Shown in pieces: positions 4,271-44,374 of a DNA stretch of 64,000 bases (its first letter is position 1; every line of letters starts with the position of its first letter). The notes under the pieces are model-generated. The model searched no databases. It had not been told where the DNA came from and saw nothing but the letters and a program-made list of their open reading frames with translations. The stretch spans positions 1-64,000 of the forward strand of contig JAADVB010000045.1 in NCBI GenBank assembly GCA_023334545.1, given 5' to 3'. A program made the position numbers and the translations under genes. The DNA comes from Salisapilia sapeloensis. Taxonomy: Eukaryota; Oomycota; Peronosporomycetes; Peronosporales; Salisapiliaceae.

Positions 4271-7200
4271 ATGGGGCGCAAGAAGGCTAAGAAGAGGAAG
4301 AATGGTGCGACTTGCTGCATTCAAATACTTTATTATAGTGACCCAAACTTTCTTACCTATCTGTTAATGCTAATTTTATATCCTATGTAGCTGGAGGTGA
4401 TGCTACAGGCGCTACTCCTCGATCCACGCCGGTGGTGGATGCCGAGACGCAGGCCGAGGCATTGGGATTACAGGAACAGGAAGTTGAAGTCTTACAAGCT
4501 ATCTTTGATTCGGATATGACCATGCATTCTTCTACTCCTGTCTATACGTACTTGTTCACAATTCGCTTGGCTTGCGAAACCACCGGTGGGCGAGGTGCAG
4601 CAGAAGTCTTGCTGCATTTCGACTTGAGCAAAGGATATCCTCTCGTCCAGCCACCCAATATTACTGTCGAAAACCAGCATGGCATTTCGAAAGATGAAAA
4701 GAAGAAGCTGACGAGCGAATTAGAAACTCAGGCAAAATCCAAAATCGGAGACGCGGTCATCTACGATCTCGTCGTCTCCGCCACCGAGTTCATACAGGAA
4801 CATCTAAAGGACCAGACATCGTTCTTTGATCAAATGGTACATCGACAGCATGAAATTGAATCTGCTGAAAAACGCGAACAGGACGAGTTATTAGAGCAGC
4901 AGGAGCAAGCAGAACTGGCAAAAGACCAGGAGTTACTAGCTCTCATTGATGCAGAGCGTCGTCGGAAGGAGGAGAAAGTGGAGGAAAACCGGAGGATGAA
5001 ACAGACGCGACAGAGAAGACGTCGGCATCGCTCTAGCATCGACGTGGACGAAGAGAGTTTCAGTCGAGGCGACGGGTACGACAGCTACGAGAGTGACACG
5101 CAGCCATCTAAGATCCCAGAAAACAGTGGCGACACGAAAGACTCGGAAGATAGTTCAGAAGAAGCAGACGATCTATCACTTGCGAGTAACGACGCCTTTC
5201 GCCACTCTCGCTACCACTCGGACTTTAAGGAGCTCGGTATCCTCGGTCGAGGTGGTGGTGGCGAAGTCGTGAAGGCTCAGAACCGACTCGATAGACAGCT
5301 GTACGCAGTTAAGAAGATCAAATTAGATGCTGAGGATCCAGCTATGAAGAAGAAGCTGCTCAGAGAAGTCAAGACGATTTCACGCATGCAGCATCGACAT
5401 ATTGTCCGGTACTTTCAAGCGTGGCTAGAGGACGAAAGCGGTCTCGGTAGTGACAGTGAGTCAGAGGAAGAGGACGAGAGTGCATCTAGTGCTTCTCGTA
5501 TAAATCAGAGGAAAGTGTCGACAGATGAAGAGTACGAAGATGACGATTGGCTTGGTACGATGAGTAAGAGCAATGGTCTATGGCAAAGCTCCCCGAGTGA
5601 TGACGATTGGGATGAAATGGAAGAAGCGCCGGAAGAGTATATACAGGATCAAGTGCTATCCAAGCCATCGGCCGTTGCATTAGGAGGACAGAATCGAACC
5701 TTGCGACGGAATGAACGTCTGTACATTCAGATGGAATACTGTGAAGGCAATGCTCTTCGAGAAGTGATTGATAAGAGTGGGCTGCATGCACATCCAGATA
5801 AGATCTGGACGTTATTTCGACAAATCCTTGAAGCCATGACTTACATCCACCGCCAAGGTGTCATCCATCGAGATATTAAACCGCCCAACATCTTTCTTGA
5901 TGCTGAAGGAGCTGTCAAACTAGGAGACTTTGGTCTTGCCGTGCGTCCACCGAAAGCTCTGGATGAAGAAGTGAATGACGAAACTGGCGTCGAGAACGCC
6001 CCAGTTGGATTCGATTCGGTCGGGTCTACTGCAGCTGAATTGTACGGGAAGCTCAAGACACTAAGTCTCGACAGCACGAGACACAACGTCCCATGGAGCG
6101 CTACGAGCACATCGCTAGGCAATGGAGTCGACATCACGGCAGGCGTCGGGACAACATTGTACCGAGCGCCAGAGCAAGAGCGAGAAGGTCAACGGTACGA
6201 TCAGAAAGCAGATTTATATTCCCTCGGCATCGTTTTCTTTGAAATGTGGTCACCACCTTTTGCAACGCAAATGGAGCGCTTCAATGCACTCATGGCACTA
6301 CGTGAAAACCATGAACTACCATCTACTTTTGACGTTCCGGAGAACGTCAAGGCATTGATCTTATGGCTCTGCAGTCGCGATCCAAAGGACCGACCGAACG
6401 CAGCAGATGTCCTACGCAGTAATCTTCTTCCAGCTAAAATGGAAGTAGAACAGTCGTACTTGCAAGAAGCGTTAGAGACACTAGCGAACCCGCAAGGACG
6501 TTTCTTCTCGCAATTCGTAGACGCTTTGCTAGCACATGATCCAGAAGCACATGCGCAATACACGTACGATCACTTGGAACCAAAGAAGCAGCGTACACAG
6601 CTCGCAGAGCTCCACACACGTGCGTTTGTCAAAGGCACTTTACAAAAGGTGTTGGAGAGACATGGAGCGACGGAGCATTCGACACCGCTCTTGCTACCAC
6701 GAGCACCAGCTCAGAACTTACCCAAGAATGCATTCACGCTACTAGATCGCAGCGGTGTGGCCGTTGCACTGCCTTTTGACCTGACGGAACGTATGGCGAG
6801 ATACGTTGGCCGACAGAATTTGTCTCGATGGAAAGGCTTTGAGTTCTCACGAGTGTATCGAGCTCATCCGGCTGGAGGTCACCCTCATGAGTTTCTCGAA
6901 GCTGAGCTTGCGATCGTTTGGAATGAAAAGAACCAGTTTCGTTGTGTCGAAATCGAAGCTTTGCAAGTCGTGGCAGAAGTCATGGATGCATTAAGTTCAT
7001 ACGTTGGTAGCTACTACCTTCGTGTGGCTGATGCTAGGCTTACGAAAGCTGTCTTGGAATTGTGTAATGTCCCAATAGGTTCGAGGCGAGAGGTATTGAG
7101 GCTCTTAGCAAGAGAGACGGCATCGAGAGTGCATCATGGTACGTCAAGTACCTCCATTCCAGCCATACAAAAAGGTGCGTGGAGATACATTACCAAGCGG

Positions 7201-8541
7201 ATGCAGCAACATGGCGTCTCGGAATGTGTCATGGAAGCTCTGCAGCCGTTCTTCCTCTTGCCAGAGGATCCACTCAGCTCTCTCGACCACACTGAGTCGG
7301 AGCTCAAGCAACTAGCAGCTAAACACAAGGAGAATAGTGATGCAGGACAGAAGACTGCAGTGCATATGCGTCGAATGCTCAAGGAAGCCAACGAAGCGAT
7401 TGCATCTCTCCGAGAGCTGCTGTCCATGCTTGACGCAGTGGGTCTCCAAGGCCCCACGTGCCTTCGACTTGACATTGGTCTAAGTCCACGACCAGAACGC
7501 TACACATCCGGACTGATCTTCCAAGCAGTCCTCATGCCTACATCGTCGAAGCAAAGCTTTAAGACGCAAGTGATCGCAGAAGGAGGACGATACGACTCGC
7601 TCGTCTCAAGTTTCCGTCTGCCATCCAAGTCCATTAAGGCAAGCCCCGTCGCTGCCATGAGCGTACGTGTATCGATCGATAAGATCTGTCCATGGGTCGT
7701 CACGACAGCCGAGACGAAACCTTCTAACACTGTAGCACCAATTGGCAAGCAGCATACAATCCTCGTATGCTCTGCAGGCAAAGGCAATGAACTTCCTCGC
7801 TTGAGACTCCAAGTCGCTATGATCCTATGGAGCCATAGTCTCGATGCCGAGTACTTGCATCCAGATGCTTTGCATCTCGAAGACTTGGAAACGTACTGTG
7901 TCGCGCAGCAGATACGATGGATGGTCGTCGTGCAAAAGCATTTGCTTGAAAAGAAACAAGTGAAAGTACGCGCAGTTCGTAATCCGAGTGAGCCGGACGT
8001 TGTCGTAAGCTGCAGCACCTTGGCCGAGTTCATGGCTGAACGACTGCATCTTCAGAACGCAAGTGCTGACTCGAGTGGTAATACATTCGACGCGACGACG
8101 AGTGACAATGCGCCGCAGCCAGTATTTGACGTCGTGGTCGTGGATAATAAGCAGCATGGCAAGGAAGGACGTGGAGGCAACAAGAATCATCAGATGGACT
8201 CGCAGAAAATCACGCGACGAGTGTCCAAGTGGATTAGCGCGAGTTTCTCTTCGAAAGGTGAAGAAGCGATGAAAGTCGTGTCTGTCGACCTACCCTTCGT
8301 GCTGCTTCGAGAATTGTCAACAGCCTTGATGGAATCTGGTGCGACTGGCGTCGATGACGTGTGTGCGCGTAATCCACGCTATCGGAAGCAAGTGCGCAAC
8401 ACATCTGATGAGATATTGGCGTTGCAACCGCAGAAAGGGCATGTGACGAGAGAACGCTACGTGCTGTTGCATAGCCTGGTAGACGACAGGTACGACATGA
8501 TGTCTCTAACTCAATCGAATAAGGATGGAGGGAAAAGATAG
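4271..8541 (+). CDS. GCN2: eIF2-alpha kinase GCN2
   Basis: Two exons: 4271-4304 (MGRKKAKKRKN, basic) and 4391-8541, joined across an 86-nt intron; about 1394 aa. Domains in order: an RWD domain (about residues 30-140, the GCN1-binding module); a charged coiled linker rich in Glu/Arg; and a protein kinase domain from about residue 290 with Gly loop GRGGGGEV, catalytic Lys in YAVKKI, HRDIKPPN and DFG. The kinase contains an acidic Ser/Glu/Asp insert between the lobes, as is usual for eIF2-alpha kinases. A histidyl-tRNA-synthetase-like domain follows (about 700-1140), then a C-terminal domain ending at the TAG. GCN2 senses uncharged tRNA and phosphorylates eIF2-alpha during amino-acid starvation. 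The separate pseudokinase domain of fungal GCN2 was not recognised here. Confidence 0.95.
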
Positions 8542-19809: not shown

Positions 19810-20472
19810 ATGAAAACCCAATCTGCACCGGACAGTCCCAACCGCATCCAAGTGCTCGCCAACGGTGACATTGTCGACTGCGCCTCGTTGCCAGCCAGTG
19901 CGAGACACTCGCTCTATAAGACCGAATTGTGCAAACATTACCGCGACACTGGCCACTGCCGCTACGGTCCCAAGTGCCAGTTTGCACACGGTGAGGATGA
20001 ACTCCGTGGCGTCTTGCGCCATCCCAAGTACAAAACGACTAAGTGCAAAGCTTTCCTCACCACTGGTCGCTGCACCTATGGCAGTCGCTGCCGCTTCATC
20101 CACCAGGATGCAGCTGGCAACTACTTCCCGTCCTCTGGCAGCGAGTCCGAGGACCAAGAGAAGAACAGTTGGATGTTCAACCCATACTCGGACTATAACG
20201 ACATGGACCTCTCTCGCCCCTTCTCCGGCCTCTCGCTTGGAAACTTTACGCAGCAATCGTCGTTCGGAAACGACTTCCCGTCCCTCGGCTCGTCTTTCCC
20301 CAAGCTCGATGCCACTGACCTCGAGTCTCTCACAAGCACTAGCAGCAGCAGCGGTGGTTCATCAGACGCTGGTCTCGAGCCTCTATCTCCACGCTCGGAC
20401 CCAGACTCGCTCGTGAGCTCCAAGTCCTCTCGACTTAGTGTCTTCCAACGCATCTGTCGTGAAGACATTTAA
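19810..20472 (+). CDS. Tandem CCCH zinc-finger RNA-binding protein (tristetraprolin/ZFP36-like)
   Basis: Single exon, 220 aa. Two C-x8-C-x5-C-x3-H fingers lie near residues 36-100. Each has the family lead-in: YKTELCKHYRDTGHCRYG followed by CQFAHG, and YKTTKCKAFLTTGRCTYG followed by CRFIHQ, with a linker of the usual length between them. TTP-family proteins bind AU-rich elements in mRNA 3' UTRs and recruit deadenylases. The remaining C-terminal half is Ser/Gly/Asp-rich and probably disordered (TSTSSSSGGSSD), with Ser-Pro sites. The start is the first ATG after a well-matched Inr. Specific targets are unknown. Confidence 0.92.
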   Translation: MKTQSAPDSPNRIQVLANGDIVDCASLPASARHSLYKTELCKHYRDTGHCRYGPKCQFAHGEDELRGVLRHPKYKTTKCKAFLTTGRCTYGSRCRFIHQDAAGNYFPSSGSESEDQEKNSWMFNPYSDYNDMDLSRPFSGLSLGNFTQQSSFGNDFPSLGSSFPKLDATDLESLTSTSSSSGGSSDAGLEPLSPRSDPDSLVSSKSSRLSVFQRICREDI

Positions 20473-23548: not shown

Positions 23549-26026
23549 ATGAAAAGCCTTCTTTACTTTTTCGTTGCCGCTGCTATCGTGGATGGTGCAA
23601 AGGCACAAGCTCTCGAGTGCGGTCAGACAGTGGAAAGTCAAGTGACAATTGACCGATGGGAGCAGCAGAGCGCACTTACGTTGTCCAGAGACTGTATTTT
23701 ACATTGCAACTCTCACAATCGAATAGTTGACTCATGGAATTTGCTAGCTCATACGGCAGCCGTGTTTCAAGATTCCATCTACCTTGTTGGTGGAGTCTCT
23801 TCCCCATACTATACCAAACGACTAGAATACACGAATACCAGGTCCGATGTTGTATCTTCCAAAGACGGAGTGGACTGGGTCGAAGTTCTGGAGGAGGCCC
23901 CATTTCGAAGGCGATATGGTCACTCGCTCACAACCTTGAAAGATACCAGCGATGGCGAGGAGCGCCTCGTTCTTGCTGGAGGCTTCAGCCCTCTTCCTGC
24001 ATCAGACATTTGGACCACAGTAGATGGAGGTACATTCGTCTTCGTGTACTACAATATTAAAGTGTAACGAAAGAAACAGAGAATTGGGTGGAAAGTAGTG
24101 CGAATGTGCCGTGGACTGGCCGAGGTTACCACTGTGCTGTAGTCTTTGACGAAAAATATTGGATCCTTGGCGGAAGCCCATTCAACAATGAAGTATGGTC
24201 CACTTCTTCAATCATGCAAGGTTACCTTCTCAACTTGTCTATTATTGATGACAGCTATTGATACAGCCTAGGTGACTGGAAACGACATGATGACGCAAAG
24301 TGGAGTCCTCGTGCTGCTCATGGATGTGCCGCCCATAAAGTCATGATGAACTCGACTCTCGGAGATACATCCTTGACCGAATTTCTATATGTGACTGGCG
24401 GCTGGGACGGCACTTCTCTCCAAGACGTCTGGCGAATGGACAAAGCCGGAGAGTGGCAACGCATCGTTGAAGCTGCACCATGGAGCAAACGAGCGTGGCA
24501 CTCTTTAGTCTCATTCGACTCTCGCACCATGGCGGATGTACAGTATGGACCTCGTCTCTGGCTCATTGGTGGCGGTATCGTTGGCAATGGCATTGACCTC
24601 ATGCAGTCCTATTCCGACGCATGGTTTACATGGGATGGCATTCACTGGGAGAGCGCGACATCCGATGCATCCGGCGTGTCCACTGCAGAGTGGAGTATGG
24701 TCAGCGTGAATACGGAAGAAGTATGTGTAGGCAAGTGGGGTCACGCGGTGGTGTCATTCCATCAGCGAGTGCCCATTGCCTTCTATTGTGATGATTCATG
24801 CTCGAACGAAGAGAATACAGTTGGACTCGGTGGTCAACTTATTCCTGTGTGTGATCCGAAGAATTCGCTACCACAAGATCCGATGCTTCAAACGATTATC
24901 AAGGACAATAGTATCCGAACGGTGACACTCTACCCAGACGGATGTGGCCTTTGCTCCGGACCACGATACTACAATACAACGTACATCCCATCACTCTTTC
25001 TCATCGCTGGGAATGCTGGGGCACAAAAAGTGAACGATGTATTTGCAAATGCTGCTGGGAGTATACATTTCCGATTCTATAGTCGCTCGTACGACGGTTA
25101 CTTACGTCGATCTAGTGTTGTGCGAGAAGAATGGAGCGATTTGTGGTAATCAAGGCGTATGTACCCTTGGAGGGACATGCCTATGCAATACAGGAAAGAC
25201 TGGTCCATACTGCGAAGACGAGGCGGATTTCGTCATCGTGAACACGAGTATGTAATCTCCTTGTCCTTCGCACGGTATCTCATGTTGACGATTGTGTCCT
25301 ACAGCTAGCTGTTTTCCGGACTATGCAACCGTATATGATACATACGGCCAGGCGCTAAAGATTGGCGATGTGAAAGTTGGCGATAAGATCTTGGGAGTAA
25401 ATAAGCTTGGTGCGATCGTTCCGACGACCGTATACTATTTGCCCCATGAAGATCAGACGATCCTGCCAAAGCTTGACTACCTACGCATTACCCACATGCG
25501 TTTCGATAGTACAAAGGTATATTATTGACTCTCTACACTCTATCCACGGTCGGCACTGACACTTCGTGTGCACGTATAGCAAGAAATACTGGACATAACG
25601 CCGGAGCACTTAGTATACGTTGTGCAAGATGTCTCATTGAAGACAGTCGGTGCATTCACCCAAAAAGCAGCACGGGAGATCCATCCCGGCGATCTTTTGC
25701 TTGTCACATCCACAACGTCAAGCAGTATGCGACTTTCGCCGTCGCAAGTGCTTTCAATAGACAACGTCCGCCTCTCGAAGACGAAACCGACGACAGTGTA
25801 CACGACAACGGGCACGATGCTCGTCGAAAGCGTCTTGTGTAGTAACTTTGGCGACTTTTACCCAATGATCAACCAGTGGCGCGACGGTGTGCCATTCTAC
25901 TTGTTTGGACTGCACCGATTCACTTATGGTCTCCTACCGTATGGTGTCACAGCACGGATCTACAGTGCGCTTACAAAATCTTTGATACCAATTGTCAGAC
26001 GAATCGGGGAAGTGCTCACGAATTGA
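23549..26026 (+). CDS. Secreted kelch-EGF-Hint (Hedgehog-type autoprocessing) protein
   Basis: About six exons. Signal peptide MKSLLYFFVAAAIVDGAKAQ. Kelch-like beta-propeller repeats follow (SIYLVGGVSS, RLVLAGGFSPLPASDIW, YWILGGSPFNNEVW, LYVTGGWDGTSLQDVW, LWLIGGGIVGN). Then an EGF-like unit CEKNGAICGNQGVCTLGG with CLCNTGKTGPYCED, reached through an intron whose best form runs about 25063-25119. After another intron comes SCFPDYATVYDTYGQ, the CFP start of a Hedgehog Hint domain, with VGDKILGVN, TPEHLVYV (Thr and His of the TxxH motif), IHPGDLLLV and GTMLVESVLCSNF as in the Hog second half. The chain ends 26026. In animals this domain cleaves itself before the Cys and can attach sterol to the released half. 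That this protein does so is inference. Confidence 0.85.
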
Positions 26027-33302: not shown

Positions 33303-36300
33303 TTAGTGGAACTCGTGGACGTCCGTCCATGCCTTCTCCTCCCGGTTCTCGCGCTCATAATAATCAAAGAGGCTGTCAGCCTCGAGACCAAGCAACGGCT
33401 GGTGCTTGTGGCGCTCCATCGAGTCGACAAAGAGCTTGACGAGACTGATGTTCGTCAGCAGCGGGATGGAAAAGTCCACGGCTGTTCGTCGGATCATGTA
33501 GTTGTTCTTGGTCTGCTTGCTCTCGCTGTTCGGGAGGTTGACGACGAGGTCAATCTCGCCATCCTTGATGTATCGCAAGACATTGTTGTCACTGTCATCA
33601 TCCGACGGGAAGTCGACCTTGGTGGACGGAATGTCGTACTTTTGCAAAAACTCGTGCGTCTTCTCCGTCGTGTACAAGTTGTATCCGAGCTCGGTCATCT
33701 TGAACGCAGCGTGAACAAAGTCATCCGTGAACTTGTCTTGCATCGACAGCAAGATGTTCTTCTTGGGCAATCGGACATTGGAAGAGATGAGTGCCTTGAG
33801 GAAGGCCTCGTGCTCGTTCTTGCCAAAGCACGCGACTTCACCAGTCGACGCCATCTCAACACCCAACAGCGGGTCGGCACCACCCAATCGGGTGTAACTG
33901 AACATGGGCGACTTGATACCAACAAAGCCTTCCGGACGCTTCGGACCGTACAGTTCCGGCAAGTTGTCCTGCTCCGTCGGCTCTCCGACCATGACCTTGG
34001 TGGCAGCGTTGATAAAGTCCGATCCAGTCGTCTTGGACGAGAACGGGAACGATCGAGACGCACGGAGGTTGCACTCAATGACACTGACGTCCGCTCCCTT
34101 GGCCAAGAACTGCGCATTGAACGGACCAGAGATGTTCAGAGCCGAAGCGATCTTCTCGGCGCACTTGCGGACTTCGTTCTGGTAGAACGAACTGGCCTGC
34201 ACAGGCGGGAGGATCATGGTCGCGTCACCAGAGTGGACACCAGCGTTCTCAATGTGCTCCGAGATGGCAGCAGCAATAACCTTGCCGTCCTTGGCAACAG
34301 CATCAAGCTCCAACTCCTTAGCACCTTCCACGAACTTGGTGATCACGACCGGGTGCTCCTTGGACACTTCCGCCGCTTCGCCAAGCACACGCTCCAAATC
34401 CTCGTGGTTGTGCGCAACGTTCATGGCAGCACCAGACAGCACGTAGGACGGACGGACGAGGCACGGGTAGCCAACGCGGTCGGCAAAGTCCCGCGCCTCC
34501 TGCATGCTCGTGAGCTCCTTCCACTCCGGCTGACGGACGCCAGCCTTGTCCATAAGCTGCGAGAACTTGTATCGGTCTTCCGCACTGTCAATCATCGTAG
34601 GGTGCGTGCCGAGGACGTGGACGCCAGATTTGTGCAGCGGAAGAGCGAGGTTGTTCGGGATTTGACCACCGACACTGACGACGACACCCTGCGGCTGCTC
34701 GACGTCGTTGACATCCATCACACGCTCCTTGGACAGCTCTTCAAAGTAGAGCTGGTCGCACTCGTCATAGTCCGTACTGACCGTCTCGGGGTTGTAGTTG
34801 AGCATCACCGATCGGTAGCCAAGCTTTCGAAGCGTACGGATGCAGCTCACAGCACACCAGTCGAACTCGACACTCGATCCGATACGGTACGCACCGCTAC
34901 CCAAGACCATGACACCATCGTTCTTCTCCTGCGCCTGGACATCGTTCTCCGCACCATTGTACGTCATGTAAAGGTAGTTGGTCTGAGCTGGGTACTCAGC
35001 CGCGAGCGTATCGATCTGCTTGACACTCGGGATGATACCCACCTCCTTTCGCTTCGCTCGCACATCATCGTCTGAGCATCCGAGCATACGCGAGAGCTGA
35101 CGGTCCGAGAAACCGACCTTCTTGGCTTCCATCAGCTCTTCGCGACTCACTTCCTGAATGCTCTTCCCCGTGAGGTTGACATCCAAGTCAGCAATACCCT
35201 GGAGACGACTCAACCACCACGTATCGATCTTGGTGATATCATGCACCTCGTCGATCGTCAGCATACCTTCCTTGAGCGCCTGTGCGATCTGGTAAATCCG
35301 ACGGTCCGTCGGACGGCTCAAAGCGCTCTTGAGCTCGTCCTTGGTCATACGGTCAAAGCGCGGCTCGAAGCCTTCGACGGCAGGGTCGACCATACGCATG
35401 GCCTTCTGGATACCTTCCTCGAAGTTTCTCGAGATAGCCATGACTTCCCCGACACTCTTCATGGCAGATCCGATCTCCGTGCTGACGTTCTCGAACTTGG
35501 CGAGATCCCAGCGAGGGATCTTGGTCACACAGTAGTCGAGACTCGGCTCAAAGCACGCCGTGGTGCTCTTCGTGACAGAGTTCTTGAGCTCCGGAAGCGT
35601 GATACCAAGGGCAAGTTTCGCAGCAACGAATGCGAGGGGGTAGCCCGTCGCCTTGGACGCCAAGGCACTCGAACGAGAGAGACGAGCGTTCACTTCGATG
35701 ATACAGTACTCTTCCGAGTGCGGGTTCAGAGCGTACTGGATGTTACACTCACCAACGATACCCAAGTGTCGAACGACCTTGAGCGCCGTCTCTCGCAGCA
35801 TGTGGTACTCTCGGTTCGACAGCGTCTGGGATGGCGCAATCACGATCGAGTCACCCGTGTGAATACCAAGCGGATCAAAGTTCTCCATGTTGCACACCGT
35901 CAGACAGTTGTCGGCACTGTCTCGCACGACTTCGTACTCGACTTCCTTCCATCCCTTCATACTTCGCTCCACAAGGATCTGAGGACTACCGGCAAACGCC
36001 TTCTTCGCCATTGATCGCAGCTCGGCTTCATCGTCGCATAGACCAGAGCCAAGACCTCCGAGAGCAAAGGCCGATCGGATCATGACAGGGAAACCAATCT
36101 CGTGGGCAGCAGTCACAGCATCGTCGACAGAGTTCACGGCGATACCCTTGGCAATACGTTCGTTGATCTCCTTGAGCTTCTCGTTAAACGAATCTCGGTC
36201 TTCCGTCGCTTCAATCACAGGGATCTGCGTACCAATGACTTCGACGCCGTACTTCTCCAAGACACCGTTCTTCGCGAGTTCGACACCACAGTTCAAAGCT

Positions 36301-37841
36301 GTCTGACCACCCATACTGATCAAGATACCATCCGGACGCTCACGCTTAATCACTTGCTCCACAAAGTCTGCGTTCACTGGTAAGTAGTACACGTTACTCG
36401 CCTGTGCTTCACTCGACTTGTCAATGTTCGTCTGGACGGAAGCGATGTTCGGGTTAATCAGAATTGTCTCAATCGCTTCTTCCTTGAGCGCCTTGATCGC
36501 TTGCGAACCAGAGTAGTCGAACTCACCAGCTTGACCAATGGATAGACCTCCAGATCCGAGAACCAAGACCTTTTTCACTTGCGGACGAACGACAGGTGGA
36601 CGCTGGACTAAGCTCGAGATCGGACCCTTCTCCTTTCGACGCACGGCGTCGAGGAAAACATCGAAGAGGAACTCCGTGTCCGTCGGTCCGCCAGAGTGCT
36701 CCGGATGGAACTGCGCCGTGAAGAACGGCTTGCTCTTGTGGATAATGCCTTCGTTCGTACCGTCGTTACCGTTGACAAAGAGCTCTTCCCACTCACTCGG
36801 CAATGTCTTGCCGTCGAGAGCATACCCGTGGTTCTGAGCAGTGATGTAGCTCTGACCGGTCTTGAGGTTGTTCACAGGCTGGTTCTGACCTCGGTTACCG
36901 AACGGAAGCTTGTACGTCTGCGCACCGGCCGCACGACCGAGCAATTGGTTACCAAAGCAAATACCAAAGATCGGCTTGACACCATCGCCTTCGACACTGA
37001 GCGCCTTCTTCAGCTGCTCCGTCGTCTCCGTGAGCACAGCCGGATCTCCCGGACCGTTACTGATGAACAGACCGTCGTACCAGTCGGCTTCCGACGCAAT
37101 GTCGTGGTTCCACGGCACGAGCTTGACCTCGGCTCCGCGCGACACGAGGGATCGGATAATATTGTATTTGATACCACAGTCGACTGCAAGGATCTTGAGC
37201 GGATTGCCAGCGCCAAACGTACGCACTTCCTTCGTGGACACGAGGGCAGACAGGTTGGTCGCGTTCGGGTCGATAAAGTCCGGCGTGTCACTACCTTCAA
37301 CGACGATTCGGCCGCTCATGGCGCCCTTGGCACGGATCTTTTTCGTAATAGCACGCGTGTCGATGCCAGCAATACCAGGGATACCTTCCCGAGCGAGCCA
37401 GTCGCTTAGGGAAGACGCAGCGTTCCAATGACTATGATGAGAAGAGTAATCTTGGACGATCATACCAGCGGCATGGATCCGGTCGGACTCGATGAACTTG
37501 TTCAGACCGAACTCATCGATGGCAGTCGTGTCCGGGACACCGTAGTTTCCGATCATGGGGAAGGTCATGTTCAAGATCTGACCTTTAAAGGAAGCATCCG
37601 TGAGAGCTTCCGGGTAGCCGACCATGCCGGTCGTGAAGACGACTTCACCAGCCATGGACTTGGGGGCACCGAACGAGACACCTTCAAAGCGAGAGCCGTC
37701 CTCGAACTCGAGGAAAGCTGGCGTCTGGAACTTGGGGGCATTTCGACGATCGACTTTCTCCCGAGCAGAGCCGAGGAGACGGCTACCACTGGACTTGTAA
37801 AGTGGTGTGCGTTTGCGAGCGGCGTTGGATAATCGAAGCAT
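33303..37841 (-). CDS. Carbamoyl-phosphate synthase, fused GATase-CPSase (CPS III-like, probably mitochondrial)
   Basis: Single exon, 1512 aa. A presequence-like N-terminus (MLRLSNAARKRTPLYKSSGS) precedes the small-subunit domain. The class I glutaminase is complete: FGICFGNQLLG holds the catalytic Cys and HPEHSGGPTD the His/Glu, so glutamine should be the nitrogen donor. The large-subunit part follows in two homologous ATP-grasp halves (GSGGLSIGQAGEFDYSG and GSGAYRIGSSVEFDWCA openings). The C-terminal regulatory domain ends with IDLVVNLPNSESKQ and MIRRTAVDFSIPLLTN, very like animal CPS1, where this region binds N-acetylglutamate. No ATCase or DHOase is attached, unlike CAD. This is the type used for arginine and the urea cycle in stramenopiles. 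Divergent from the ArgB-ArgC fusion. Confidence 0.95.
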   Translation of the reverse strand: MLRLSNAARKRTPLYKSSGSRLLGSAREKVDRRNAPKFQTPAFLEFEDGSRFEGVSFGAPKSMAGEVVFTTGMVGYPEALTDASFKGQILNMTFPMIGNYGVPDTTAIDEFGLNKFIESDRIHAAGMIVQDYSSHHSHWNAASSLSDWLAREGIPGIAGIDTRAITKKIRAKGAMSGRIVVEGSDTPDFIDPNATNLSALVSTKEVRTFGAGNPLKILAVDCGIKYNIIRSLVSRGAEVKLVPWNHDIASEADWYDGLFISNGPGDPAVLTETTEQLKKALSVEGDGVKPIFGICFGNQLLGRAAGAQTYKLPFGNRGQNQPVNNLKTGQSYITAQNHGYALDGKTLPSEWEELFVNGNDGTNEGIIHKSKPFFTAQFHPEHSGGPTDTEFLFDVFLDAVRRKEKGPISSLVQRPPVVRPQVKKVLVLGSGGLSIGQAGEFDYSGSQAIKALKEEAIETILINPNIASVQTNIDKSSEAQASNVYYLPVNADFVEQVIKRERPDGILISMGGQTALNCGVELAKNGVLEKYGVEVIGTQIPVIEATEDRDSFNEKLKEINERIAKGIAVNSVDDAVTAAHEIGFPVMIRSAFALGGLGSGLCDDEAELRSMAKKAFAGSPQILVERSMKGWKEVEYEVVRDSADNCLTVCNMENFDPLGIHTGDSIVIAPSQTLSNREYHMLRETALKVVRHLGIVGECNIQYALNPHSEEYCIIEVNARLSRSSALASKATGYPLAFVAAKLALGITLPELKNSVTKSTTACFEPSLDYCVTKIPRWDLAKFENVSTEIGSAMKSVGEVMAISRNFEEGIQKAMRMVDPAVEGFEPRFDRMTKDELKSALSRPTDRRIYQIAQALKEGMLTIDEVHDITKIDTWWLSRLQGIADLDVNLTGKSIQEVSREELMEAKKVGFSDRQLSRMLGCSDDDVRAKRKEVGIIPSVKQIDTLAAEYPAQTNYLYMTYNGAENDVQAQEKNDGVMVLGSGAYRIGSSVEFDWCAVSCIRTLRKLGYRSVMLNYNPETVSTDYDECDQLYFEELSKERVMDVNDVEQPQGVVVSVGGQIPNNLALPLHKSGVHVLGTHPTMIDSAEDRYKFSQLMDKAGVRQPEWKELTSMQEARDFADRVGYPCLVRPSYVLSGAAMNVAHNHEDLERVLGEAAEVSKEHPVVITKFVEGAKELELDAVAKDGKVIAAAISEHIENAGVHSGDATMILPPVQASSFYQNEVRKCAEKIASALNISGPFNAQFLAKGADVSVIECNLRASRSFPFSSKTTGSDFINAATKVMVGEPTEQDNLPELYGPKRPEGFVGIKSPMFSYTRLGGADPLLGVEMASTGEVACFGKNEHEAFLKALISSNVRLPKKNILLSMQDKFTDDFVHAAFKMTELGYNLYTTEKTHEFLQKYDIPSTKVDFPSDDDSDNNVLRYIKDGEIDLVVNLPNSESKQTKNNYMIRRTAVDFSIPLLTNISLVKLFVDSMERHKHQPLLGLEADSLFDYYERENREEKAWTDVHEFH

Positions 37842-41323: not shown

Positions 41324-44300
41324 ATGCGACTGCACTACGCGCTGCTCGTATCGGCCATCGCGGTACACGCCGCGGATGCTGCCACGCAATGCGCTTTCAA
41401 TCTACAGACAAAACTACTGTCGACGTTGCAGGACCCACCGACGGATGTCGTCGTCGAAGGAAGCAGTCAGAGTCTAGACGTCTTCGTCGGCTCCACATCC
41501 TTTGATGGCAGCGTTGGAGACTTGCTAGACCACTACGACGACGCCATTACCGCGTCTACATCTACCAGTGGATCTGGCTTGCTCACCAACGACTCCTCTC
41601 TGGATGGAGTAGACCTACCGAATATCTCGACGCCAGTGCCCGTCGACGGGAGCTTGGACTTGCTACCAGGCGAATCAGGTTCCAAGGCCAAAGACAAGGG
41701 AAGTGGCAGCAGCACGTCTGCACCCACTACTCTCATCCCTGACTCTGGCAGCTCTGGCAGCTCTGCCAAGTCGGAAAAGGAAGATAAAGGCGGTAAATCA
41801 GACAGTGGCAGCACCAACTCCCCCGCGCCGACCACTACGGCGCCGAGTCCCAGCCCCGACAGCAAAGGCTCGCTGGACGCTGCCGTCCCATTAGACGATC
41901 TAACGAGACGACTGCAAGTAAACGCTGGCAGCTTGGCTGGCCTCGAGAACGTCGCCGGTGTCGATCGCGTCGGAAGCACCATCGGCTCTGCTTCTGTGAG
42001 CGCAGACGTGTTGTCATCTGGAGGTAGTGGCTCTACTTCGGATGGGAACATGGCCTGTGATGAAGGTTTCTATGAGAAATGGAATACTCTCGGTATTAAG
42101 TGTCTCGGAGAAGACATCGACGTCGAGAAAGCAGTCGATGCAGCCGCTTGTGTAATCTACAGCGGTAACCTCGGCGTACTCTCCGGTCATTCCTGCGTCT
42201 CGATCTGTTCCTTCCCTGGTTGCACCAACGACGGATGGGACTATAGCGTTTCCAACGGCTTTGCTTCTCCCGTCTATCGTGACTATCAACTCTCGGACTT
42301 TATGTCCCCGGACATGACTGCTCGGATGTCGACGCAGAAGCAAGCGCCTACTATCATGTCCAACACGAGCATGACGAGCTCTCAACAGTGTTCCTACGAC
42401 GACGAAGACTCGTTCTCGTCGTGCGACTGCTCCAGTCTTCTCGTCTCTGGCACGGAAGAAGACGCGCAGAGAGATCGGATCAAGGACTGGGCACAAGGCA
42501 TCATCCCAGACGACGACACGAGTCTCACAGGCAAGATCCTCGCGCCAGTGTCCAAGAGTCTCGCCGGTGCAGCCGTCGCCATGAGCGGTATCGCCGTCGT
42601 CGCAAGTTCCGTCGTGAGCTCTGCTTCTGCCGCTGCTGGAGCTGCAGGTGCAGGCGCTGGGTCCGTCGGTATCTACACGATCGACATCTGTGGCTTTGGC
42701 GTCATGATCAATCAATTAGATCTCCAAGGTCGCTCAGCTGTCTTGACCAACTTTGGCGAGTCGCTTGCTCCTGCGACCTTTATCTTCATGCCGTTCGGTA
42801 AGATCCATGACGACGATAAGGACGAGGGTACGAGTGATGCGGATCGAACGACACGCCGACTTATGGACGGGAGTGAGACGCTACCAGACTCTGGTATCGC
42901 CAAGTACGCTCGTATCGCAGGCTTTCGAGAAGACATGCTTTTCGTCGTGACACTCGCAGGTGTCGTCGTGATTATGGCAGGTATCCTCGCAGCTTTCTTC
43001 GTCGCCTACTTGATTGCTGGCTTCTTCATGTCAAGAGAAACGTTCATGGATAAGTTTTTTGATAAAATGGTTAGTCTACAAGTACTTGTAGCTATCCTCT
43101 CGCAGTACACGATCGGTGTCACGGGAACTTATCAAATCTATCACTCGATCGAATCCAAGGGAGAGGTAGATGCCAAGTGCATCTTGGCGTTCGCAGCTAT
43201 CATCTTCCTTGCTCTTGGTATCATGGTCTTTGGTCTCGTGGTCATTAAACGCAATGAAGACAAGATCCAGGACGTCGGGCAGCCTTCGCATATCAACAAG
43301 TGGATTTGCAAACGCTACGGACCGCTCTATGACGAGTACACGTACGACAATCGATTCTTCTTTGCTTCGAAGATGCTCCTAGCTCTTGCGACTGGTGTCA
43401 TCACAGGCTTTGTCGGCCTTAGCTCGACACTCCAAGTGTCGCTCTTACTCGGTTGCCAAGTCATCTTCTTCTTCTACCTCGAATACAGGTCTCCGCATCA
43501 CTCCAAGTTCATCCAACGCGCCACGAGCTTTGTTAGTGTCATGAAGATCACCGTCCTTATCCTCACTTTCTTCCTCATCAGTGCTGCGACGGCGGATGGA
43601 CTCCCGAGTGACGTCCAGAACGGTATCTCTTTAGCCATCGTCGGTCTTAACGTCTTCGTCCTCCTCCTCATGCTCCTACGCTCCGTCTACAACTTCTGGA
43701 ACAAGTTCCAGATGCAGCGTAAGGGACAGGAGTATGAGAATGAGGCACAGAGCGCTCGAGATTACTTTAAGGATGAAACGCCGCAGAAGGAGACTTCACA
43801 GACAAATCAAGGTTCCTCCTACTTTGATACATCGGAGCCGGCGCCGGAAGGAGAAGACATTCGTCTACGCTCCGGCACGCATCTTAATGACTCGAATAAC
43901 TATGCCAACTACCAGCCACAGGCGAGCGGTGCTGGACAGACCGGGTCGTCTAGATACCTCGCGGATGATATTGGACAGCAAGGATATCGTCAGAATCCGT
44001 ACGACGTCGAGACATCCATGGAAGACGACGTGATGAATCCGTACCAACGAGCTGATAGCAATGATGCTTTCCGTCCGAATAACGCGACGCAGCCGCTGAA
44101 TCCGTACAACTCGAGTCAGTCGATGGATACGTACCAGCCGAGTCGACCGATGAAACCGAAGGACTTGAGCCAATCCACGAGTGGCTACGAGTCTTCTCGA
44201 CCGAATCCGTACACTGCACATGGATCAATGGATACCAGTCAAGGGTATCAGCAGACGGAAAGATATGGTGCTCCACCGGCACCGACAGAAACGCACATGC

Positions 44301-44374
44301 CACCGAACAATCGTCAGGCACGTGACAGTGTGAACGAGTACAACCAGCGTCGAGATGACGTGATTGAGCTTTAA
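41324..44374 (+). CDS. Large signal-peptide-bearing multi-pass membrane protein, possibly TRP/Flc-like
   Basis: Single exon, 1016 aa. Signal peptide MRLHYALLVSAIAVHAADA. A long Ser/Thr/Gly/Asp-rich extracellular stretch (residues about 90-220) suggests O-glycosylation. A Cys-containing ectodomain follows (CDEGFYEKWNTLGIKCLGED, CVSICSFPGCTND). The membrane half has about eight or nine segments, including an Ala/Gly-rich one (GIAVVASSVVSSASAA), VVTLAGVVVIMAGILAAFFVA, and a last group ending GISLAIVGLNVFVLLLMLL. The layout (signal peptide, ectodomain, TRP-like core) resembles fungal Flc/TRP-like proteins; that is tentative. The cytoplasmic tail is polar, with four NPY motifs. Confidence 0.65.
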   Translation: MRLHYALLVSAIAVHAADAATQCAFNLQTKLLSTLQDPPTDVVVEGSSQSLDVFVGSTSFDGSVGDLLDHYDDAITASTSTSGSGLLTNDSSLDGVDLPNISTPVPVDGSLDLLPGESGSKAKDKGSGSSTSAPTTLIPDSGSSGSSAKSEKEDKGGKSDSGSTNSPAPTTTAPSPSPDSKGSLDAAVPLDDLTRRLQVNAGSLAGLENVAGVDRVGSTIGSASVSADVLSSGGSGSTSDGNMACDEGFYEKWNTLGIKCLGEDIDVEKAVDAAACVIYSGNLGVLSGHSCVSICSFPGCTNDGWDYSVSNGFASPVYRDYQLSDFMSPDMTARMSTQKQAPTIMSNTSMTSSQQCSYDDEDSFSSCDCSSLLVSGTEEDAQRDRIKDWAQGIIPDDDTSLTGKILAPVSKSLAGAAVAMSGIAVVASSVVSSASAAAGAAGAGAGSVGIYTIDICGFGVMINQLDLQGRSAVLTNFGESLAPATFIFMPFGKIHDDDKDEGTSDADRTTRRLMDGSETLPDSGIAKYARIAGFREDMLFVVTLAGVVVIMAGILAAFFVAYLIAGFFMSRETFMDKFFDKMVSLQVLVAILSQYTIGVTGTYQIYHSIESKGEVDAKCILAFAAIIFLALGIMVFGLVVIKRNEDKIQDVGQPSHINKWICKRYGPLYDEYTYDNRFFFASKMLLALATGVITGFVGLSSTLQVSLLLGCQVIFFFYLEYRSPHHSKFIQRATSFVSVMKITVLILTFFLISAATADGLPSDVQNGISLAIVGLNVFVLLLMLLRSVYNFWNKFQMQRKGQEYENEAQSARDYFKDETPQKETSQTNQGSSYFDTSEPAPEGEDIRLRSGTHLNDSNNYANYQPQASGAGQTGSSRYLADDIGQQGYRQNPYDVETSMEDDVMNPYQRADSNDAFRPNNATQPLNPYNSSQSMDTYQPSRPMKPKDLSQSTSGYESSRPNPYTAHGSMDTSQGYQQTERYGAPPAPTETHMPPNNRQARDSVNEYNQRRDDVIEL

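Follow-up and report, generated by a model that had tools for sequence, protein, structure and literature searches.

A Hedgehog-type Hint domain on a kelch-EGF protein of Salisapilia sapeloensis and other oomycetes

Hedgehog is the textbook protein that ties itself to cholesterol. The presence of Hog machinery (a Hint domain plus an adduct-recognition region) in organisms without sterol synthesis poses a testable question: what is the acceptor of a Hog domain in a cell that does not produce cholesterol? The question is raised by a gene in a stretch of 64,000 nucleotides from the oomycete Salisapilia sapeloensis (assembly GCA_023334545.1, contig JAADVB010000045.1, positions 1 to 64,000; hereafter the window), for which the original prediction, made from the DNA letters, proposed a secreted kelch-EGF protein with a Hedgehog-type Hint domain. 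What was found is a known domain in a new architecture and a new lineage. The reading we lean towards is that the product is a secreted or surface kelch-EGF precursor which is cleaved by its own Hog part, the kelch-EGF half likely ending in a lipid alcohol.

The gene lies on the forward strand, and its limits agree exactly with the interval first proposed, as the ATG is at 23549 and the stop codon ends at 26026. Removal of five introns (each 50-63 nt, with GT..AG borders) from between six exons gives a single, continuous predicted open frame of 733 amino acids (Table 1). The exon 3 donor at 25061 was preferred, since use of the one at 25097 would shorten the intron to 19 nt. In the predicted protein a hydrophobic N-terminus is followed by kelch repeats at about aa 67-400, then by a Cys-rich segment and, at aa 473-503, an EGF-like module; the Hint domain and its tail occupy aa 517-733. 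By eye the N-terminus, MKSLLYFFVAAAIVDGAKAQA, resembles a signal peptide, and that of some relatives, e.g. P0008, begins alike; no 19-residue hydropathy window across the whole protein scores above 1.6.

A profile search of the C-terminus had been proposed as a check, and in Pfam the Hint profile PF01079 matched aa 512-676 with E 4.4e-16 and 59.5 bits, past the curated cut-off of 29.7; the same profile scored 60.3-76 bits in the relatives P0024, P0008 and P0011. Kelch_1 also passed its cut-off (27 bits against 20.1). A Hint domain on a kelch-EGF protein, with the nucleophile and TxxH motif kept, is upheld. The EGF part of that claim stands by its six-Cys pattern and by the EGF_2 score of P0024 (25.3 bits, above the cut-off of 22.1), but the copy in the window protein reaches 18.1 bits and stays below it. 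The Hedge signalling domain was not found, the Pfam search up to E 1 returning the kelch, EGF and Hint families alone. All of the motifs listed at the outset, SCFPDYATVYDTYGQ, VGDKILGVN, TPEHLVYV and GTMLVESVLC, were located in the translation. The predicted C-terminus is a true Hint domain of the Hedgehog type.

Comparison with known structures gave the same assignment. The C-terminus alone matched fly Hedgehog in PDB at E 1.4e-4, and the family profile did so at E 5e-12. Structure prediction, the second check proposed, yielded a model with a Hint fold for which the Hedgehog Hint ranked first, as it did by sequence, with inteins and bacterial intein-like domains lower; this is one model compared with known folds, and its mean predicted local distance difference test score (pLDDT) of 56.9 counts against the assignment, block means in the N-terminal Hint core being 67-87. 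Inteins share the Hint fold, and it could be supposed that the domain is an intein or bacterial-intein-like domain which splices or cross-links. An intein ends in His-Asn followed by Cys, Ser or Thr, whereas the domain end here reads LCSNF and lacks that splice junction. The domain is also less similar to inteins than to Hedgehog, and carries extra C-terminal helices, with a tail that matches the first helix of the human SHH sterol recognition region (SRR); an intein is extremely improbable.

The residues of the first step are conserved. Cys517, Thr592 and His595 are invariant in alignment A2 despite varying neighbours (alignments A2 and A5 have nine rows each). An equivalent of Cys517 occurs in 23/40 oomycete-type rows, the remainder lacking the stretch, and the search pattern itself demands the Cys. 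The residue preceding it is Ser in 17/23 and elsewhere Asn, Ala or Thr, never Gly. The first step is apparently intact and, by these residues, the Hog domain looks functional.

The window gene belongs to a family. The protein search at E <= 1e-3 gave 26 matches, of which 24 are oomycete-type and the others are P0025 and P0026; 23 of the 24 are named, their genera being Phytophthora, Pythium, Plasmopara, Lagenidium, Globisporangium and Nothophytophthora. PF01079 is found in 21/24 of the oomycete-type proteins, and in the other three the model breaks off within the Hint region or ahead of it, or runs out of its frame. Sequence identity with the window protein ranges from 35 to 63% and is mostly 44-59%, with Hint less conserved than kelch and EGF. 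This predicted kelch-EGF Hog protein, whose acceptor site is unusual, spans several oomycete genera of sterol-auxotrophic lineages. An existing P. infestans entry carries the name 'Hint module', and no account of an oomycete Hog protein was found among the literature matches listed. The Hog-domain profile search at E <= 1 gave 16 matches, all oomycete-type and none nematode or algal, and no Saprolegniales or Albugo names occur among the matches of the family searches, many of which are unnamed (about 8000 candidates scored in each). The S. sapeloensis assembly, which has 19.5 Mb in 452 contigs and may be incomplete, contains a single Hint match, and the whole-protein search returned pieces of the window gene only.

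One intron parts EGF and Hint in the window gene, and it could be argued that two genes or transcripts have been united by the gene model alone. The EGF module is skipped or broken in 4/23 Hint-start models, and several models are fused to a CNNM gene. Against this, the EGF with the same Cys spacing, 13 residues and then Cys-Phe recur in 19/23, the window's own model included, all of these counts resting on predicted gene models, and the window frame and splice sites agree; separate genes are hardly to be expected. The CNNM-kelch-Hint or CNNM-Hint proteins (P0006, P0009, P0017, P0022, P0023, P0027; PF01595) were regarded as fusions introduced by the gene models, since the window gene and, for example, P0005, P0008 and P0010 each encode their own hydrophobic N-terminus. 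Such fusions occur in public Phytophthora and Nothophytophthora models, where the two genes are probably neighbours, and the S. sapeloensis assembly gave no CNNM match. A gene of Peronospora that carries the annotation 'Hedgehog/Intein (Hint) domain' and is well expressed in infection (PMC10234565) was set aside, being choline-transporter-like, about 450-480 aa long and irrelevant to the window gene.

The second step departs further from that of animals. There, D303 of fly Hedgehog (D46) activates cholesterol, and SHH D46A variants keep thioester formation yet lose cholesterol transfer. MAFFT and hhalign pair this position with His562, and the register differs by tool, as phmmer and hmmsearch, when given the wild-type fly sequence, place it at one of the next two residues; the shifted register would put an acid at D303 in most rows. 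Among the 25 rows having the stretch, several of which share a species, 24 have His at the His562 column. The pairs at His562-Glu563 are HE (15), HD (7), HG (2, both P. infestans) and LD (1), and in every row a His or an acid is kept at one of the two adjacent columns. Engineered fly D303H (D46H; PDB 6tyy) remains active and takes additional sterols (PMC9163320), so His at D303 would not exclude catalysis. The oomycete proteins are like this variant in having His probably at the general-base place; they differ in that the His is natural, with a register uncertain by one or two residues.

The tail behind the Hint domain also bears on the acceptor. Along the first SRR helix, through AFAPFRLAHALL, human SHH is matched by the family profile, and the predicted model of P0024 has helices at 385-390, 392-400 and 404-434. 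Phe, His and Arg are present in 23/23 tails; the Phe and Arg correspond to F377 and R381 of human SHH and, as Phe694 and Arg698, are invariant in A5. At the P379 place there is Pro in 19 tails, Leu in two (window included) and Ala in two.

Several observations weigh against a Hog domain that transfers a lipid. In the MAFFT and hhalign register there is no Asp at the D303 place, nor is any Asp conserved there in the family, and P. oligandrum has Leu where the other rows have His. The place of fly C400 is taken by Asn674, and it is Asn in all A2 rows (invariant N167). At the H374 place the 23 tails have Phe (20), Val (1), Trp (1) and His (1), and the HWY motif occurs in 0/23. In human SHH, alanine at H374, F377, R381 or any HWY residue leaves far less processed product in cells, and the variants H374A, F377A, R381A, H433A and Y435A do not produce the cholesterol form in vitro (PMC7242414). 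These changes at the general base and C400, together with the lower conservation of Hint relative to kelch and EGF, could indicate a degenerate Hint that serves as a structural module without catalysis, but Cys517, Thr592 and His595 are unchanged throughout A2 while their neighbours vary, and we consider degeneration very unlikely. Judged from the alignments, the family is one of Hog proteins in which the features of the cholesterol transferase are replaced at D303, C400, H374 and HWY, and Hedgehog-like cholesterol transfer is not supported. Of the earlier proposal that the kelch-EGF half is released, possibly with a lipid, the release is thus retained as likely and the adduct as a possibility, whereas a Hedgehog-like second step is not upheld.

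In the self-cleaving precursor that we favour, the kelch-EGF protein with its C-terminal Hog part would enter the secretory path, and in vivo the Hint domain would convert the Ser516-Cys517 peptide bond to a thioester, with Thr592 and His595 assisting. The helical tail at the C-terminus would recruit a nucleophile, which would then take over the kelch-EGF half and leave the Hog part behind. This nucleophile would most likely be a lipid alcohol, the probable candidate being a sterol taken up from the host or environment, and the kelch-EGF half would end in the lipid and remain on the membrane. The main rival is that the Hint domain cleaves and that water or a small thiol resolves the thioester, so that the kelch-EGF half is released lipid-free. 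This would agree with the loss of conservation at H374, HWY and Asp303, all of them linked in animals to the sterol step, and with the thioester-forming SHH D46A variants. However, the tail and Hint are similarly conserved (mean pair identity 50% and 47%, respectively), with the Phe, His and Arg of the tail in every sequence, for which a hydrolase has no obvious need, and fly D303H stays active with sterols (PMC9163320); a lipid-free release is possible but rather unlikely.

That oomycetes of this kind do not make sterols had been noted at the outset, and this is borne out in that the lineage is described as sterol auxotrophs and the cyclase profile PF13243, the sole cyclase profile searched, has no match in the assembly; as the assembly is possibly incomplete, little weight attaches to the absence of a cyclase match. 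A squalene-epoxidase-like match is weak (24.2 bits) and partial. An ERG24/DHCR7-like sterol reductase is present as two open pieces (L007 and L008, G000 C323:331-1499), and DHCR7 is kept in sterol-auxotrophic Phytophthora and Pythium though earlier steps are lost (PMC8211186). According to the same review, sterol recruitment in oomycetes is largely unknown. There are 18 elicitin matches in the assembly, which, like the oomycete names of the nearest protein relatives, agree with the gene content of an oomycete. It also encodes an NPC1-like protein (L006, G000 C82) with sterol-sensing, NPC1 middle luminal and Patched domains, the sole Patched-family match reported there. A protein-sterol adduct, if true, would be a new use of sterols in oomycetes.

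How a Hog domain came to stand behind kelch and EGF can be approached through relatives without it. The full-length profile search gave 52 matches, and kelch-EGF relatives beyond the named oomycetes include P0042 (Phaeothamnion confervicola), P0043, P0044, P0045 (Cyclotella atomus) and P0046. P0042 aligns with aa 117-503 of the window protein, up to the last EGF Cys (E 1e-44), and P0043 with aa 68-480. Their kelch-EGF part is homologous to that of the window protein, but neither has a Hint match, and each terminates in a hydrophobic stretch that nothing follows, at the point where the oomycetes have Hog. Within the final 40 residues, the highest hydropathy over 15 residues is 2.45 in P0042 and 2.19 in P0043, versus 0.99-1.66 in six oomycete Hog tails. 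These two models, one marked partial, suggest a scenario that we regard as speculative and doubtful, namely that after the loss of sterol synthesis Hog replaced the C-terminal membrane anchor, glycosylphosphatidylinositol-like or other, of an older stramenopile kelch-EGF protein, making its surface display dependent on sterol supply. The anchor lipid would be a sterol from the host or surroundings, which the cell itself is unable to make; the natural His for the Asp base, together with the altered tail, would be consistent with a lipid that is not cholesterol, for example a sterol of plants or some other lipid alcohol. Such a replacement would give a simple reason for the architecture, since Hog too can lipidate the C-terminus of an outer domain, and, if true, it would show the exchange of one anchor for another in evolution. 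It is opposed by P0052 and P0054, which pass the EGF-like module and end about ten residues on, without Hint or a hydrophobic tail; these are near-identical models of 267 and 268 aa on short contigs and are perhaps cut at an intron. P0044-P0046 and P0055-P0057 stop ahead of the EGF module and are uninformative.

Set beside the Hog domains of fly Hedgehog and human SHH, the family shares the fold, the nucleophilic Cys, TxxH, the motif order and the first recognition helix with F377 and R381. It differs in having kelch-EGF instead of Hedge as its N-terminal half, Ser, Asn, Ala or Thr instead of Gly ahead of the Cys, a residue other than Asp at D303 and Asn at C400, with H374 replaced in 22/23 tails and HWY absent from all. 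Hog genes have been described in dinoflagellates, Cryptosporidium, red algae, mosses, jakobids and haptophytes (Burglin 2008, PMC2362128). As in those protist and algal proteins, a lineage-specific and often secreted N-terminus precedes Hog, and the motif J cysteine, equated here with C400, is often replaced; unlike them, the window protein has a kelch-EGF N-terminus, which does not appear in sections 9 and 16 of that paper. The words oomycet, stramenopile and heterokont are absent from its main text. PMC8530017 states that oomycetes lack Hedgehog-related genes; the oomycete Hog family contradicts and corrects this statement.

Table 1. Features of the kelch-EGF Hog gene, in coordinates of the window
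Feature	Position	Strand	Description
Exon 1	23549..24029	+	Start codon, hydrophobic N-terminus, beginning of kelch propeller; open frame from ATG; donor GTACAT at 24030
Kelch beta-propeller	23747..24849	+	About aa 67-400, exons 1-3
Exon 2	24080..24220	+	Kelch propeller
Exon 3	24272..25060	+	Remainder of kelch propeller and Cys-rich segment; donor GTATAC at 25061
Exon 4	25116..25247	+	EGF-like module, linker
EGF-like module	25121..25213	+	aa 473-503; six Cys, spacing 6-5-5-1-8
Exon 5	25305..25516	+	Beginning of Hint domain, includes Cys517
Cys517 codon, predicted nucleophile	25310..25312	+	Invariant column in alignments A2 and A5; cleavage expected at Ser516/Cys517
His562 codon, likely at fly Hedgehog D303 (D46) place	25445..25447	+	MAFFT and hhalign pairing; Glu563 next
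Exon 6	25580..26026	+	Remainder of Hint domain, C-terminal tail, stop codon
TxxH motif, Thr592-Pro-Glu-His595	25598..25609	+	Thr and His invariant in the nine A2 rows; in 23/40 oomycete-type rows
Cys672 codon	25838..25840	+	Invariant in A2; two residues ahead of Asn674 (fly Cys400 place); in 23 rows, pattern demands Cys and Asn
C-terminal tail	25853..26023	+	aa 677-733 (57 aa), at place of sterol (adduct) recognition region

Other genes were recognised in the window. A GCN2-like protein with RWD, kinase, histidyl-tRNA synthetase-like and anticodon-binding domains is encoded by a 1369-aa frame at 4432-8541 (+), and a carbamoyl-phosphate synthase with fused small and large chains by a 1512-aa frame at 33303-37841 (-). 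A TRP-channel-like protein (PF06011) has a 1016-aa frame at 41324-44374 (+), and a short protein at 19810-20472 (+) shows, by eye, two CCCH-type zinc-finger-like motifs.
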